Assembly (NCBI RefSeq): GCF_002900975.1
Contig: NZ_PJON01000001.1
Location: 682,001 to 746,000, forward strand
Origin: Tabrizicola aquatica
GTDB taxonomy: Bacteria > Pseudomonadota > Alphaproteobacteria > Rhodobacterales > Rhodobacteraceae
Direction: 5' to 3'
DNA: 64,000 nucleotides
Under the pieces are notes generated by a model. That model had not been told where the DNA came from and made no database searches. It was given only the letters and a program-made list of their open reading frames with translations. Made by a program: the position numbers and the translations under genes. Shown in pieces: positions 24,160-61,515 of this stretch (position 1 is the stretch's first letter; every line of letters starts with the position of its first letter).

Positions 24160-24296
24160 CTGCAAGCCTCTGGAATGTTTGCAACCAGGGGCGTGTTGCC
24201 CCCTTCGTCGGTCCTAGCGCAGGGGGCCTTCGGGGCGCATACCCCATACGGGTGAGAGGTCGGGTTTCCCCGACCCCCAAAGGTGCTTCAGCCGCC

Positions 24297-26832: not shown

Positions 26833-26866
26833 TGCAAGGCTGTCCCCGGGTTGAACGGGGGTGCCG

Positions 26867-27478
26867 ATGCCGGATGTTCGTCAGATTGCCGCAGAGATCG
26901 TGGGGCGCGAGGGTGGGTTTGTCGATGATCCGGACGATCCCGGTGGCGCGACCAATCACGGGGTGACGATCCACACGCTGCGGCGCCTTGGCATCGACGT
27001 GAACCGCGATACGCGGATCGATGTGGCGGACGTGAAGGCCCTGACCCGGAAACAGGCGGTCGAGATTTACCTGGAGCATTACTACACCCGCCCCGGCATC
27101 GCGGCCCTGCCCGAGGCGCTGCAGGCCAGCCTGTTCGACATGTATGTGAACGCCGGCGGTAACGCGGTGAAGATCCTGCAGCGGCTGCTGACCGACATGG
27201 GCTTTCCCTGCGACCCGGACGGGCAAATCGGGCCGCAGACGATCCGCGCGGCGCAGATGGCGCATGAGGCGGCACCGTCGCATCTGGTCGATGCCTATGG
27301 GATCGCGCGGCGGAACTACTACTACGCGATTGCCGACAAGCGCCCGGCCAGCCGCAAGTTCGCCCGCCGCAAGGATGGCGGAAAGGGCGGTTGGATCACC
27401 CGGGCCGAGGAATTCATCTCGCCGAAGTATCACCTGACCGAGGCGCAGCACCGGGCGCGGGTGGCGGCATGGGGGTGA
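26867..27478 (+). CDS. GH108 endolysin (N-acetylmuramidase), GTA-lysis type
   Basis: 203 residues. The N-terminal glycoside hydrolase 108 domain has the catalytic-Glu motif GREGGFVDDPDDPGGATNHG (about residues 14-33) and LEHYYTRPGIAALP. The C-terminal half is a peptidoglycan-binding-3-like domain (PCDPDGQIGPQTIRAAQ, YYYAIADKRPASRKFA). No signal peptide, so export would depend on the holin. ATG 26867 is preferred over GTG 26861, which sits on top of the GGGGG ribosome site. The holin gene follows 4 nt later. Such pairs serve prophage or GTA release; no other phage genes are near. Confidence 0.88.
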   Translation: MPDVRQIAAEIVGREGGFVDDPDDPGGATNHGVTIHTLRRLGIDVNRDTRIDVADVKALTRKQAVEIYLEHYYTRPGIAALPEALQASLFDMYVNAGGNAVKILQRLLTDMGFPCDPDGQIGPQTIRAAQMAHEAAPSHLVDAYGIARRNYYYAIADKRPASRKFARRKDGGKGGWITRAEEFISPKYHLTEAQHRARVAAWG

Positions 27479-27482
27479 AGGG

Positions 27483-27959
27483 ATGGGGGGAGTGATCGGC
27501 AAGCTGATCGGGACCCCGGCGGCGGTCTCGGCCCTGGGCGAGGCGGCGCAGGGTGTGGCGGAGGTGTTCATTCCTTCGGCCACCAAGCGGATGGAACTGT
27601 CGGCCGAGGCGCAGATGGCGGCCTTGCGGCAGTTGGGCGAGGAGTATCAGCATCCGGCCTTAAGCTGGTTCGACCGGATGGTGAACGGGTTGAACCGCCT
27701 GCCGCGGCCTTGCCTCGCCTTCGGGACGCTGGGGCTTTTCACCTATGCGATGGTCGATCCCGAGGCCTTTGCCAAGCGGATGGTTGGGTTGAACGCGGTG
27801 CCCGAGCCGCTGTGGTGGTTGCTGGGCGCGATCGTCGCTTTCTACTTCGGGGCGCGCGAAACGCATTACTTTCGCAACCGGGCGGTGATCTCGCCCTTTA
27901 CCGCGTCGGGGGCGGTGCCCGAGGAGAATGCGGCGCTGGACGAATGGCGGCGGGGCTGA
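27483..27959 (+). CDS. GTA-type holin (3TM holin family)
   Basis: 158 residues like the GTA_holin_3TM family. The N-terminus looks amphipathic, with KLIGTPAAVSALGEAAQGV, and two clear membrane segments follow: PCLAFGTLGLFTYAMV (about 76-91) and LWWLLGAIVAFYFGA (about 109-123). C-terminal tail soluble. ATG 27483 has little room for a ribosome site after the endolysin stop; GTG 27492 behind GGGGGG is an alternative. Likely makes membrane holes for the endolysin. Confidence 0.82.
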   Translation: MGGVIGKLIGTPAAVSALGEAAQGVAEVFIPSATKRMELSAEAQMAALRQLGEEYQHPALSWFDRMVNGLNRLPRPCLAFGTLGLFTYAMVDPEAFAKRMVGLNAVPEPLWWLLGAIVAFYFGARETHYFRNRAVISPFTASGAVPEENAALDEWRRG

Positions 27960-37415: not shown

Positions 37416-38100
37416 CGCGCTGAACCTGGTTTTCGACCTGGACGGCACGCTGATCCACAGCGCGCCGCAGATCCACGACGCGGCCAATAAAGTGTTCTTA
37501 GCCAAAGGCTTGCCCGGCTTTCCTTATGAAACCGTGCGCGGTTTCATCGGCAACGGCGTCGGCGTGCTGGTCCGCCGCCTGCTGGCCCATCAAGGGCTGC
37601 CACCGGAGGGCCCACTCCACGCCGAACTGGTCGCGGGTTTCATCAGCATCTATGAGGAAGCCTTTGATCTGACAACGCTTTATCCCGGCGTGACCGACGC
37701 GTTGGTGGCGCTGTCCGCGGCGGGCCATCGCCTGGCGATCTGCACCAACAAACCCCAAGGACCGACCCACGCAGTGCTGCGCCACTTCGGGCTGGACCGT
37801 TTCTTTCCCATTGTCATCGGCGGCGACAGCCTGCCGCAGCGCAAGCCCGACCCCGCGCCCCTGCGCGCGGCGCTGTCGGGGCTTCAACCGGCGCCGGCCC
37901 TCTTCATCGGTGACAGCGAGGTTGACGCCCAGACCGCGCAAGCCGCTGGCGTTCCCCTGGCGCTGTTCACCCAAGGCTACCGCACCGCCGCGCCGGAAAG
38001 CCTGGGCGCAAAGCTGGTGTTCGACGATTTCGCCGCCCTGCCCCGCCTGATCGGCCATCTGGCTGCCCGATTTCGCGTCCAGGATGCCCCGATTGCATGA
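37408..38100 (+). CDS. gph: Phosphoglycolate phosphatase
   Basis: HAD-superfamily phosphatase detoxifying 2-phosphoglycolate from RuBisCO oxygenation or DNA repair. 230 residues. Motif I LVFDLDGTLIHS, motif II ICTNKP, motif III GGDSLPQRKPDPAPL and IV LFIGDSEVD. I take TTG 37408 as start, inside rpe (8-nt overlap), because GAGG lies six nt upstream and no better in-frame ATG exists; ATG 37363 would give an odd N-terminus. Pairing with rpe is typical of proteobacteria. Confidence 0.93.
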   Translation: MRDALNLVFDLDGTLIHSAPQIHDAANKVFLAKGLPGFPYETVRGFIGNGVGVLVRRLLAHQGLPPEGPLHAELVAGFISIYEEAFDLTTLYPGVTDALVALSAAGHRLAICTNKPQGPTHAVLRHFGLDRFFPIVIGGDSLPQRKPDPAPLRAALSGLQPAPALFIGDSEVDAQTAQAAGVPLALFTQGYRTAAPESLGAKLVFDDFAALPRLIGHLAARFRVQDAPIA

Positions 38101-38111
38101 CAAGTCCCGTC

Positions 38112-38138
38112 ATGCGGGCGTTTTGGCGCCCTTCGCAT
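38112..38138. other. Bulged hairpin after gph
   Basis: ATGC and GGGCG (38112-38120) pair with CGCCC and GCAT (38127-38138) with a small bulge. It lies 11 nt after the gph stop, without a following U-run. Possible 3' end stem or terminator remnant. Confidence 0.3.
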
Positions 38139-38248
38139 GCCGCAAACTCTCGACAAGCCAAGGAAACCTGCCGTATCTCACGTCCAAGTCCTGAATGCCC
38201 CAAGGTCAGGCAAAGCTGACCGGGCCCCCCGCCAACAGGGATAGAACG

Positions 38249-39031
38249 ATGAGTGAGACCATTCTTGCCTTGCTGAACCGGATTGCCGCCGCCTCCAGCA
38301 TCGACGAGGCCTGGGAGCGGGCGACCGGACATTTCGCCAGCCTGGGCTTCAAGCGCGTGAACTACGGTTTCACCCGGTTCAAGCACCTGAAAACCATCGG
38401 CGACCCGGATGATGCGCTGTTCCTGTCGACCTGCGATGCGGATTACGTCAAGCGCTACTTCCAGGGCGGGTTCTATGCCAAGACGCCGGTCTTTCGCTGG
38501 GCGGAACGCAGCTCGGGCATTTGCAGCTGGACCTGGGTGAAAGAGGCGTTCGAGGCCGGGCGGTTGTCGGCGGAAGAGGCCGAGGCGGTGCGTCAGAATG
38601 CGGCCATGGGCGTGGTGGCGGGGATCTCGGTCAGCTTCCCCGAGGTTTCGTCCCGCTCGAAGGGCGCGCTGGGGCTGATCGCGGACCCCGGCCTGACGGC
38701 CGAGGCGGTGGATGCGATCCTGGCGCAGCGCAAGGAAGAGATCCTGGCCGTGGCGAACATGATGCACCTCACGATCGTCCACTTGCCGCAACTGTCGCGC
38801 CACCGCGCGCTGTCCCCGCGTCAGCGCGAGGCGCTGGAATGGGTGGCCGACGGCAAGACCACGCAGGATGTGGCGCTGTTGATGGGAGTCAGTCCCGCGA
38901 TGGTGGAAAAGCACCTGCGCCTTGCGCGCGAGGCGTTGGCGGTCGAGACCACGGCCCAGGCCGTCGCAAAGGGGGCGCTTTTGAACATGATCTTCCAGCG
39001 CCAGCCCGAGGTCGCCCAGGCCGCGCGCTGA
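38249..39031 (+). CDS. LuxR-family regulator with autoinducer-binding-like domain (orphan)
   Basis: 260 residues: an N-terminal autoinducer-binding-like domain (1-175) and a C-terminal LuxR helix-turn-helix (LSPRQREALEWVADGKTTQD, about 188-207, then GVSPAMVEKHLRLAREAL). ATG 38249 has CAGGGAT upstream. No luxI-type synthase is in the window, so it is an orphan (solo) here. By eye the acyl-homoserine-lactone pocket is not standard: the usual Trp-Tyr pair is Tyr66/Tyr70 and the Asp of DP is Thr79-Pro80. It may sense a different ligand or none. Confidence 0.9.
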   Translation: MSETILALLNRIAAASSIDEAWERATGHFASLGFKRVNYGFTRFKHLKTIGDPDDALFLSTCDADYVKRYFQGGFYAKTPVFRWAERSSGICSWTWVKEAFEAGRLSAEEAEAVRQNAAMGVVAGISVSFPEVSSRSKGALGLIADPGLTAEAVDAILAQRKEEILAVANMMHLTIVHLPQLSRHRALSPRQREALEWVADGKTTQDVALLMGVSPAMVEKHLRLAREALAVETTAQAVAKGALLNMIFQRQPEVAQAAR

Positions 39032-39033
39032 AG

Positions 39034-39049
39034 GTAGGGTTTTCCCTAC
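39034..39049 (+). other. Small hairpin right after the luxR-type gene
   Basis: GTAGGG-TTTT-CCCTAC, perfect 6-bp arms, starting 3 nt after the stop codon. Could stabilise the transcript or act as an operator; too short to be a sure terminator. Confidence 0.35.
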
Positions 39050-39222
39050 TCGCCTGACGTTGCGTCACCTGCCACAAAGCCCGCTACCGGAGCGGTGCAG
39101 ACTGGGCCGCCACCGGATCGTTGGTCGACCGTAAGGTCCTTAGTCCCCTTGGCCGCAATTACGGCGGCCGGCTTCGGTTCTGTCCGCCTCGTCCTATCCC
39201 CAGGGGCCCGGGCAGGGCTTTG

Positions 39223-39257
39223 CGGCGCGGTCCTTCCCCGGGACCGCGCCGTTTTCA
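39223..39257 (+). terminator. Intrinsic terminator, plus strand
   Basis: Perfect 11-bp stem CGGCGCGGTCC / GGACCGCGCCG (39223-39233 with 39241-39251), 7-nt loop, then TTTTC. It ends the transcript reading through 39050-39222, either a 190-nt luxR-type 3' UTR or an unrecognised small RNA. Confidence 0.88.
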
Positions 39258-39276
39258 TTTGCTACCTGTCGGAACA

Positions 39277-39308
39277 GGAAAAGGGCCGGCACCTTGCGGC
39301 ACCGGCCC
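39277..39308 (-). terminator. Intrinsic terminator of rpsB-tsf, minus strand
   Basis: On the minus strand an 11-bp stem (with two G-U pairs) and GCAA tetraloop (39283-39293 with 39298-39308) precede UUUUCC (complement of 39277-39282). It lies 22 nt after the tsf stop. Confidence 0.88.
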
Positions 39309-39330
39309 CCCTGCCCCGATCTTGGGGAAA

Positions 39331-40239
39331 TCAGCCCTGCAGCGCCTTGGCCACTTCCGCGGCAAAGTCTTCCTGCTTCTTCTCGATGCCTTCGCCCACG
39401 GCAACGCGCGCGTAGCCGGTGATCTCGACGCCCGCTTCCTTGGCCGCGGCTTCCACGGTCAGGTCGGGGTTGATCACGAAGGCCTGGCCCATCAGCGTGT
39501 TCTCGGCCAGGAACTTCTTCATCCGGCCCGGGATGATGTTGTTGTGGATCACCTGCTCGGGCTTCGGCTTGGCGGACGAGGCGTTCTCTTCCAGGGCCTT
39601 GGCGGTCTGTACGGCAAGCTCACGCTCGACCAGCACGGGGTCCAGGGTGGCTTCCGACAGCGACAGCGGGTTCGTCGCGGCGATGTGCATCGCGAACTGC
39701 TTGCCGATCTCTTCGGCCTTGGCCTTGTCGCCCTTCAGGGCAACGAGGACGCCGATCTTGCCCATGCCGGCAGTCGCCGCGTTGTGGACGTAGGAGACGA
39801 CGGTGTCGCCTTCCAGCACATGCAGGCGGCGGAAGGTCATGTTCTCGCCGATGCGGGCGATGGCTTCCTGGATCACGGTCTCGACGGTCTTGCCGTTCAG
39901 ATGCGCGGCCTTCACGACTTCGACCGAGTCGCCGGTGGTCAGGGCGACATTCGCCACATCACGGACCAGCGCCTGGAAGTCTTCGTTCTTGGCGACAAAG
40001 TCGGTTTCCGAGTTGATCTCGACCGCGACGCCCTTGCCGTTGGACACGGCGACGCCAACCAGCCCTTCGGCGGCGACGCGGTCAGCCTTCTTGGCGGCTT
40101 TGGCCAGGCCCTTGGTGCGCAGCCAGTCGACTGCGGCTTCCATGTCGCCGTTAACTTCGGTGAGCGCCTTCTTGGCGTCCATCATGCCTGCGCCGGTCGA
40201 CTCGCGCAGTTCCTTCACCATCTGTGCGGTGATCGTCAT
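39331..40239 (-). CDS. tsf: Elongation factor Ts
   Basis: Nucleotide exchange factor for EF-Tu. 302 residues from ATG 40239 ([15 protein letters not shown], preceded by AAGGAG). Signature [18 protein letters not shown] and later [16 protein letters not shown]-terminal repeat intact. Follows rpsB by 72 nt containing a strong stem. Ends at an intrinsic terminator. Confidence 0.97.
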
Positions 40240-40264
40240 GCCTTGCACTCCTTGGAATAGATGG

Positions 40265-58285: not shown

Positions 58286-61448
<3,163 letters not shown>

Positions 61449-61515
61449 CCGCCCCGCCTCCGTCACCGCGCAGATTCCTTCCCGCTCTCGTCGCAAGACA
61501 ATCGGCGGGAATGGG

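Follow-up and report, generated by a model that had tools for sequence, protein, structure and literature searches.

An Unpaired LuxR-Type Regulator with an Altered Ligand Pocket

The luxR gene at 38249–39031 (+ strand) raises the question of which signal reaches a LuxR-type regulator that stands apart from any synthase, and which genes such a regulator controls. The sequence-only reading of the window (the whole 64 kb stretch of DNA that was analysed) had described this gene as an orphan with no synthase nearby. A luxI search of the genome confirmed this: the sole match to PF00765 was found on contig C10 (40614–41105, − strand; 43 bits, above the cut-off), where it adjoins its own LuxR of 203 aa with W, Y, D, P and W at the canonical positions, as read by eye. 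The genome thus has one complete luxI–luxR pair, and the luxR of the window stands outside it. The term LuxR solo is used here in the sense that no luxI is paired with the gene; by the strict definition (no luxI in the genome), the term would fail. Two sub-threshold PF03472 matches elsewhere in this genome were disregarded.

The product of 260 aa is a LuxR family member with an autoinducer-binding domain, as it matches Autoind_bind (PF03472) with 73.2 bits (cut-off 23) and GerE (PF00196) with 31.9 bits (cut-off 23.5). The start at 38249 was chosen with orthologues aligning from about residues 1–7; an alternative in-frame ATG lies at 38195. The AlphaFold model has a pLDDT of 83.3, with low values at residues 43–53, and its best PDB matches are TraR, RhlR, LasR and QscR.

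A profile alignment with TraR (1h0m/1l3l; residue numbering after PMC11655674 and PMC4338825) places Tyr66 at W57 and Thr79 at D70; Tyr70 (Y61), Pro80 (P71), Trp94 (W85) and Gly125 (G113) are retained. The same residue register was obtained with a second TraR by single-sequence alignment. The structure-based register is clear, and the canonical residues were not found displaced to other positions. Of the altered pocket that had been proposed from the sequence, the changes of Trp to Tyr and of Asp to Thr were borne out, and the Tyr position (Y61) proved to be unchanged. As judged from these alignments, the pocket departs from that of a canonical AHL receptor, with D70 replaced and Tyr in the place of W57.

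Asp was absent from the D70 position in all 222 homologous luxR loci (80 from named genomes and a further 30 and 112 from the same family sample, some of them paralogues). Among the 216 distinct proteins, those with at least 57% identity (n = 88) have Thr (80), Ser (6), Ala (1) or Met (1) at this position, and those with 40–57% identity (n = 114) have Ala (93), Gly (10), Ser (6), Thr (3), Val (1) or Ile (1). Below 40% identity, with paralogues counted, Ala, Gly or Ser was found in 14/14. The D70 change is a trait of the whole family, old and general. The HTH is strongly conserved across the homologous loci.

In AHL receptors, Asp70 touches the amide of the signal. Since this residue is missing, a ligand other than an AHL, or no ligand at all, is favoured. 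It could be argued that the protein still works as a normal AHL receptor in spite of the changed pocket, hearing the genome's own LuxI signal or that of neighbours. The retained Trp94, Gly125 and Pro80 and the presence of luxI on contig C10 are in line with this, and AHL-binding LuxR solos are known, as described in PMC10134790. However, we regard an AHL receptor as improbable, given the lack of Asp in 222/222 loci and the fact that the luxI on C10 already has an adjoining LuxR with canonical residues.

An Operator-like Repeat at the luxR Stop Codon

The range considered in the sequence-only reading ended with the luxR stop codon, one base short of an operator-like partial inverted repeat, AGGTAGGGTTTTCCCTACT (39032–39050, + strand; dyad centre at about 39041.5). 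The repeat, strongly conserved at or past the luxR stop, was spotted by reading the homologous loci beyond the stop codon. Based on 193 distinct sites, its consensus is RGTnnGGnnnnCCnnACT. The symmetry is partial: four of the nine position pairs are symmetric in 172–193 of the 193 sites, and the other pairs in 15–91.

A 19-column weight matrix was trained on 73 sites of the named loci (L006–L085) and tested on other luxR loci, those of the family sample. Six loci duplicating training loci were removed; the segment scored ran from −20 to +280 relative to the luxR stop, with a threshold of at least 12 bits. The operator was found at the luxR 3′ end in 116/135 test loci (115/134 without the window's own). 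The controls gave 1/135 for the luxR coding sequence, 2/135 for the 300 nt upstream and 0/135 for shuffled sequence. Before the removal of duplicates, the count was 122/141, with 1, 2 and 0 of 141 in the controls.

Three of the 19 misses do carry the site on inspection; L095 was missed with a frame that runs past the site, L102 with a site 345 nt downstream and L252 with an in-frame stop that misled the script. Two more loci score just 11.6 (L217) and 10.4 bits (L256), and in the genomes of L195 and L241, luxR lies apart from the RNA described below. Seven misses (L214, L219, L235, L274, L275, L277 and L278) are second luxR copies in genomes having another copy. L201 (genome G088) has luxR and the RNA and lacks the site, and no site was found at L172, L271, L273 and L276.

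In the window's own genome of 3.87 Mb, the pattern is matched exactly at 39032–39050 and nowhere else, and this repeat is also the best-scoring site in the window. With up to two mismatches, the same genome has 22 matches vs. 54 for the reversed control. The 198 genomes of the family sample gave 76 exact matches, spread over 65 genomes, compared with about 59 obtained with the reversed control. Of the 76 matches, 46 are located either at the 3′ end of luxR or 52 nt ahead of the RNA, and 30 fall in other places. The pattern alone is unremarkable genome-wide; its place is special.

A second short palindrome (TGACGnnGCGTCA / TTACCnnnGGTAA) was noticed by eye at 39051–39075, and such an element often seems to come after the operator in other loci as well. 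At Roseobacter-type loci, the second palindrome, again by eye, seems to overlap the operator on its upstream side.

A Predicted Small RNA Gene Between luxR and tsf

Downstream of the operator, a small RNA gene of about 172 nt was predicted at 39085–39256 (+ strand), its 5′ end being placed by homology 53 nt past the operator start. It is followed by the convergent tsf gene for elongation factor Ts (39331–40248, − strand). In the homologous loci, the RNA begins with a 5′ hairpin that starts with GTTCC(G)TGAGTGGTGGC. Its stem pattern was sought 40–110 nt from the operator start and found in 121/193 loci with the repeat; in 115 of these 121, the distance from the operator start to the stem is 53 or 54 nt. 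Further hairpins follow, one of them with a C-rich stretch. A simple search detected a terminator in 122/193 loci, with a median length to it of 209 nt. In the window, a 3′ hairpin (39177–39218, + strand) exposes the C-rich, anti-Shine–Dalgarno-like stretch GTCCTATCCCCA (39191–39202), and an intrinsic terminator with a GC-rich stem and TTTT lies at 39222–39255 (+ strand), ahead of tsf.

The predicted structure was examined in two alignments. In that of 56 loci, 6 of the 13 predicted pairs show two-sided, pair-keeping changes, and each pair of the second hairpin is broken or gapped in 11–14 of the 56 sequences. The other alignment was built for the window's clade from 28 loci; it starts 45 nt past the beginning of the repeat and reaches at least as far as the terminator. 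Its fold reaches −40.5 kcal/mol vs. −7.4 ± 2.9 kcal/mol for column shuffles, with 0/100 shuffles as low. Two-sided changes, which also occur in the 3′ hairpin, were found here in 18 of the 28 pairs; 12 of the 28 belong to the terminator, and 13 of the 16 outside it show such changes. This clade has a diverged, derived 5′ hairpin and a weak −10 element.

An Rfam 15 search of positions 37900–39500 of the window (E ≤ 1) gave no match above the gathering score, and among 18 homologous loci, a tRNA was the only match. Weak matches to sX13, ar35 and BjrC68 were rejected as far below their gathering scores.

LuxR-type activators typically act from a box centred near −43 in front of a poor −35, which is the layout of an activator-dependent promoter. 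In the homologous loci, the operator is centred at about −43 relative to the inferred start of the RNA, the −35 region is poorly conserved and the −10 element is CAnnnT-like. Because of these three features, we propose that the promoter is activated.

Distribution of the RNA and Co-Occurrence with luxR

The distribution of the RNA was assessed using R1, a covariance model of its first 86 nt. The model was trained on 56 loci, all from beside luxR, and 41 of these sequences come from the 198-genome family sample that was searched. R1 matched 119 of the 198 genomes, once each, and 112 of the 119 matches share the strand of the luxR match and follow it at a distance of 55–392 nt. It gave no match to the window's own copy of the RNA and misses the window's clade.

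Counted by genome (n = 198), luxR and the RNA occur together in 116 genomes, luxR alone in 22, the RNA alone in 3 and neither in 57. When the 41 training genomes were left out, 79 R1 matches were left, 72 of them luxR-adjacent, and the 157 other genomes fall into 76 with both, 21 with luxR alone, 3 with the RNA alone and 57 with neither (Fisher P of about 3e-21, not corrected for phylogeny). It should be noted that luxR presence was defined here as E < 1e-30 among the matches listed; at E ≤ 1e-5, 154/198 genomes match. Across the class, R1 matched 2 of 190 genomes, one of which belongs to the same family. The other match, in genome G371 (32 bits), has neither an operator nor Tsf in the surrounding 3.1 kb and is probably due to chance.

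Among the 22 genomes with luxR alone, 21 were examined (G087 was left out), and 17 of these carry an operator of at least 12 bits at the luxR 3′ end. Since the operator is kept there, part of the gap reflects divergence of the RNA. Four genomes (G041, G058, G142 and G016) have luxR and neither the operator nor an R1 match. Furthermore, a luxR whose HTH is nearly identical is retained at five Pseudogemmobacter-type loci (L063, L037, L038, L040 and L082); no operator was found at tsf in these loci and no exact site in their genomes. R1 matched 0/5 of these genomes at E ≤ 0.1, which is a weak result, since R1 also misses the window's clade.

Genomes in Which luxR Was Moved or Lost

All seven R1 matches that do not lie beside luxR were analysed as a natural experiment. 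In four genomes (G095, G056, G113 and G187), luxR is found elsewhere, in G187 at a distance of about 1.4 kb and in the other three on another contig. The operator in each of the four lies exactly 53 nt before the RNA and scores 29.8, 14.0, 24.1 and 27.8 bits, respectively. The remaining three genomes (G024, G105 and G118) have no luxR at the locus and keep the RNA beside tsf; no site of at least 12 bits was found in the 3.1–3.2 kb around the RNA in any of the three. A close luxR homologue is also missing among the matches listed for these genomes (no match for G024, a best E of 8.5e-10 for G105 and 4.0e-28 at 28% identity for G118), the assembly of G118 being only 84% complete. The Tsf proteins of G024, G105 and G118 are 69–74% identical to each other, about as distant as from that of G095. 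Because they are so divergent from one another, the three luxR losses look independent. Given that the repeat stays with the RNA in 4/4 genomes and has gone with luxR in 3/3, it belongs to the promoter of the RNA and depends on the presence of LuxR.

Based on the above results, we consider it likely that this LuxR solo, which lacks the canonical AHL contact according to its alignment, activates the adjacent trans-acting sRNA from the operator at its own 3′ end. Comparison of the loci establishes the residues, the operator, the RNA structure, the spacing, the co-occurrence and the tracking of luxR presence by the site; we infer the binding of LuxR, activation rather than repression, transcription of the RNA and its pairing with mRNAs. 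The proposed course of events is as follows. A dimer of the LuxR solo would bind the partial inverted repeat at the end of luxR; sitting in a class II position (about −43), it would activate the sRNA promoter between luxR and tsf. The transcript would include the conserved 5′ hairpin, which is derived in the clade of the window, the covarying hairpins of its middle and 3′ parts, the C-rich stretch and the intrinsic terminator. Its anti-Shine–Dalgarno-like stretch presumably pairs with mRNAs at their ribosome-binding sites. A response may also come from a few further genes that carry the operator, namely that of a DUF2269-type membrane protein and, in some species, luxR itself.

EsaR-type LuxR proteins act as repressors, and the LuxR solo could likewise repress the sRNA promoter, so that a loss of luxR would free the RNA. 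The three genomes that keep the RNA without luxR and the operator would fit such a case, and an operator centre near −43 is compatible with repression as well. Nevertheless, we find repression unlikely: the site is where the lux boxes of activators sit, the weak −35 and the CAnnnT-like −10 are as in activator-dependent promoters, and the operator–RNA distance is identical in 4/4 relocated cases.

It is quite unlikely that a different protein binds the repeat, with luxR as a mere syntenic neighbour. The conserved order luxR–RNA–tsf means that linkage alone proves little, and the Pseudogemmobacter-type genomes have luxR with neither the repeat nor an RNA match. Against another binder stand the genomes with moved or lost luxR, where the repeat stays with the RNA (4/4) or is absent along with luxR (3/3), and the repeat also occurs upstream of luxR in 5/80 loci.

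Comparison with Known Regulatory Systems

In Vibrio, the VqmA and VqmR genes are adjacent, and VqmA senses DPO via its PAS domain. The LuxR solo of the window has the Autoind_bind domain with the AHL-receptor fold in place of the PAS ligand domain, and so it is not a member of the VqmA family. Still, it probably activates its sRNA, as VqmA does VqmR. In the system described for Vibrio cholerae (PMC8284805), a receptor and transcription factor in one protein activates an sRNA gene, whereas activation is only predicted here. A wider proposal, put forward tentatively and leaning towards the doubtful, is a sensory circuit spread across the Rhodobacteraceae, a counterpart of VqmA–VqmR with a signal of its own, in which the AHL-receptor fold would have been adapted to a molecule other than an AHL and would act mainly via one dedicated sRNA. 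Another likeness is that of VtlR–AbcR in Agrobacterium and Brucella, where an alphaproteobacterial factor is described as directly activating sRNAs and, through them, affecting many genes (PMC7486931); it differs in its LysR-type protein, in its RNA and in the bacterial family concerned.

Table 4 of Subramoni et al. 2015 (PMC4338825) lists Group 1 of the unknown LuxR solos, which lie beside tsf in 25 named genera and have W57Y and D70I/G/A. The LuxR of the window shares with them the convergent tsf, the affiliation with Rhodobacteraceae, W57Y and the loss of D70, and is taken here, on the strength of these features, to belong to Group 1 and to the same orthologous group. It differs from the published D70I/G/A in having Thr. 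On account of the neighbouring aroQ, the authors of that paper suggest that the solos take part in the synthesis of aromatic amino acids; the window has a HAD hydrolase gene as a neighbour instead. The altered pocket of Group 1 solos has thus already been published, and the pairing with an sRNA and an operator seems new. Terms for small or non-coding RNA are absent from the main text of PMC4338825. A tsf-adjacent sRNA is likewise missing from the main-text passages on sRNAs of a Ruegeria paper and a Paracoccus paper (PMC5107571), and a literature search covering few subscription papers yielded no publication on this sRNA or its operator. 'Riboswitch82' near SPO1974 in the Ruegeria paper was rejected as a candidate, as it is probably the known cobalamin riboswitch of that paper.

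For LuxR solos with an altered pocket and no known target, the ligand is hard to reach. Here, with a specific operator and a conserved output RNA, a promoter reporter would allow the ligand to be sought in a simple screen. In addition, the predicted RNA would represent a conserved sRNA family that has no Rfam 15 match at the thresholds used and was found by R1 in 119/198 sampled genomes of the family.

Further Operator Sites and the GTA Neighbourhood

The sequence-only reading had also pointed to GTA lysis genes and cckA in the window, and this was supported by domain content: a GH108 endolysin gene (26861–27478), a GTA-type holin gene (27483–27959) and a CckA-like hybrid kinase gene (59397–61496, − strand) are present. 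The endolysin–holin pair (26861–27959) lies upstream of an arginyl-tRNA synthetase gene. The suggested tie of this LuxR to GTA/CtrA control was not supported: the best operator-like site of the window adjoins luxR itself (29.7 bits), and the target conserved throughout the family is the predicted sRNA gene beside tsf. Apart from the reverse reading of this site, the only other sites of at least 8 bits in the window are 59168–59186 (− strand; 17.1 bits) and 24257–24275 (+ strand; 15.6 bits). The former lies 211 nt past the 3′ end of the cckA-like gene, within the next ORF (58402–59403).

CerM, CerN and GtaR of Cereibacter and Rhodobacter are LuxR-type proteins from the same order as the window, and CerM/CerN are linked to CtrA (PMC11655674). 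According to the same paper, D70 is retained in each of the six LuxRs that it lists for C. sphaeroides WS8N, and the reported CerM site is TNT(N5)AAGACA(N2)T. Orthology of the LuxR solo with CerM/CerN or GtaR was rejected, as the pocket (D70) and the binding motif differ. Regulation of GTA production by the LuxR solo via CckA/CtrA is very unlikely: it has in its favour the CckA-like kinase and the GTA lysis genes within the same 64 kb, the link between quorum sensing and CtrA described for relatives (PMC11655674, PMC4046655) and the 17.1-bit site past the cckA-like gene, but this site falls within another ORF and is weak vs. the 29.7 bits at luxR, and the LuxR solo differs from CerM in both D70 and the binding site. 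No strong link was found, and little beyond gene neighbourhood speaks for one.

Outside the window, the second-best site of the same genome (23.3 bits) was found on contig C7 at 241804–241822 (L120, 1501–1519), just upstream of a gene for a DUF2269 membrane protein that is divergent from a xanthine dehydrogenase-type gene. For the DUF2269-type homologues, all of those found in the 198 genomes, a site lies just upstream in 6/6 (13.4–26.9 bits); that of L314 reads better on the opposite strand. In genome G175 (L154 and L313), the operator stands in an arrangement resembling the DUF2269/xanthine dehydrogenase-type locus of C7.

The background was low: at 13 bits or above, only seven sites were found when 1,768,834 positions in the surroundings of the 80 named luxR loci were scored. 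Six of these seven lie 100–140 nt upstream of luxR itself, in five of the 80 loci, which suggests self-regulation in some species. Taken with the activation of the sRNA proposed above, these sites support a small regulon of the LuxR solo, in which the sRNA would be the main member and self-regulation would be occasional.

The luxR-upstream operators were observed at loci L031, L032, L020, L023 and L058 and score 15–28 bits. A further operator, shared by genomes G134 and G133 (L140 and L145, at about position 1500), was observed upstream of an SCP2-type gene; an alpha/beta hydrolase gene comes next, and a Suv3-like helicase gene is nearby.
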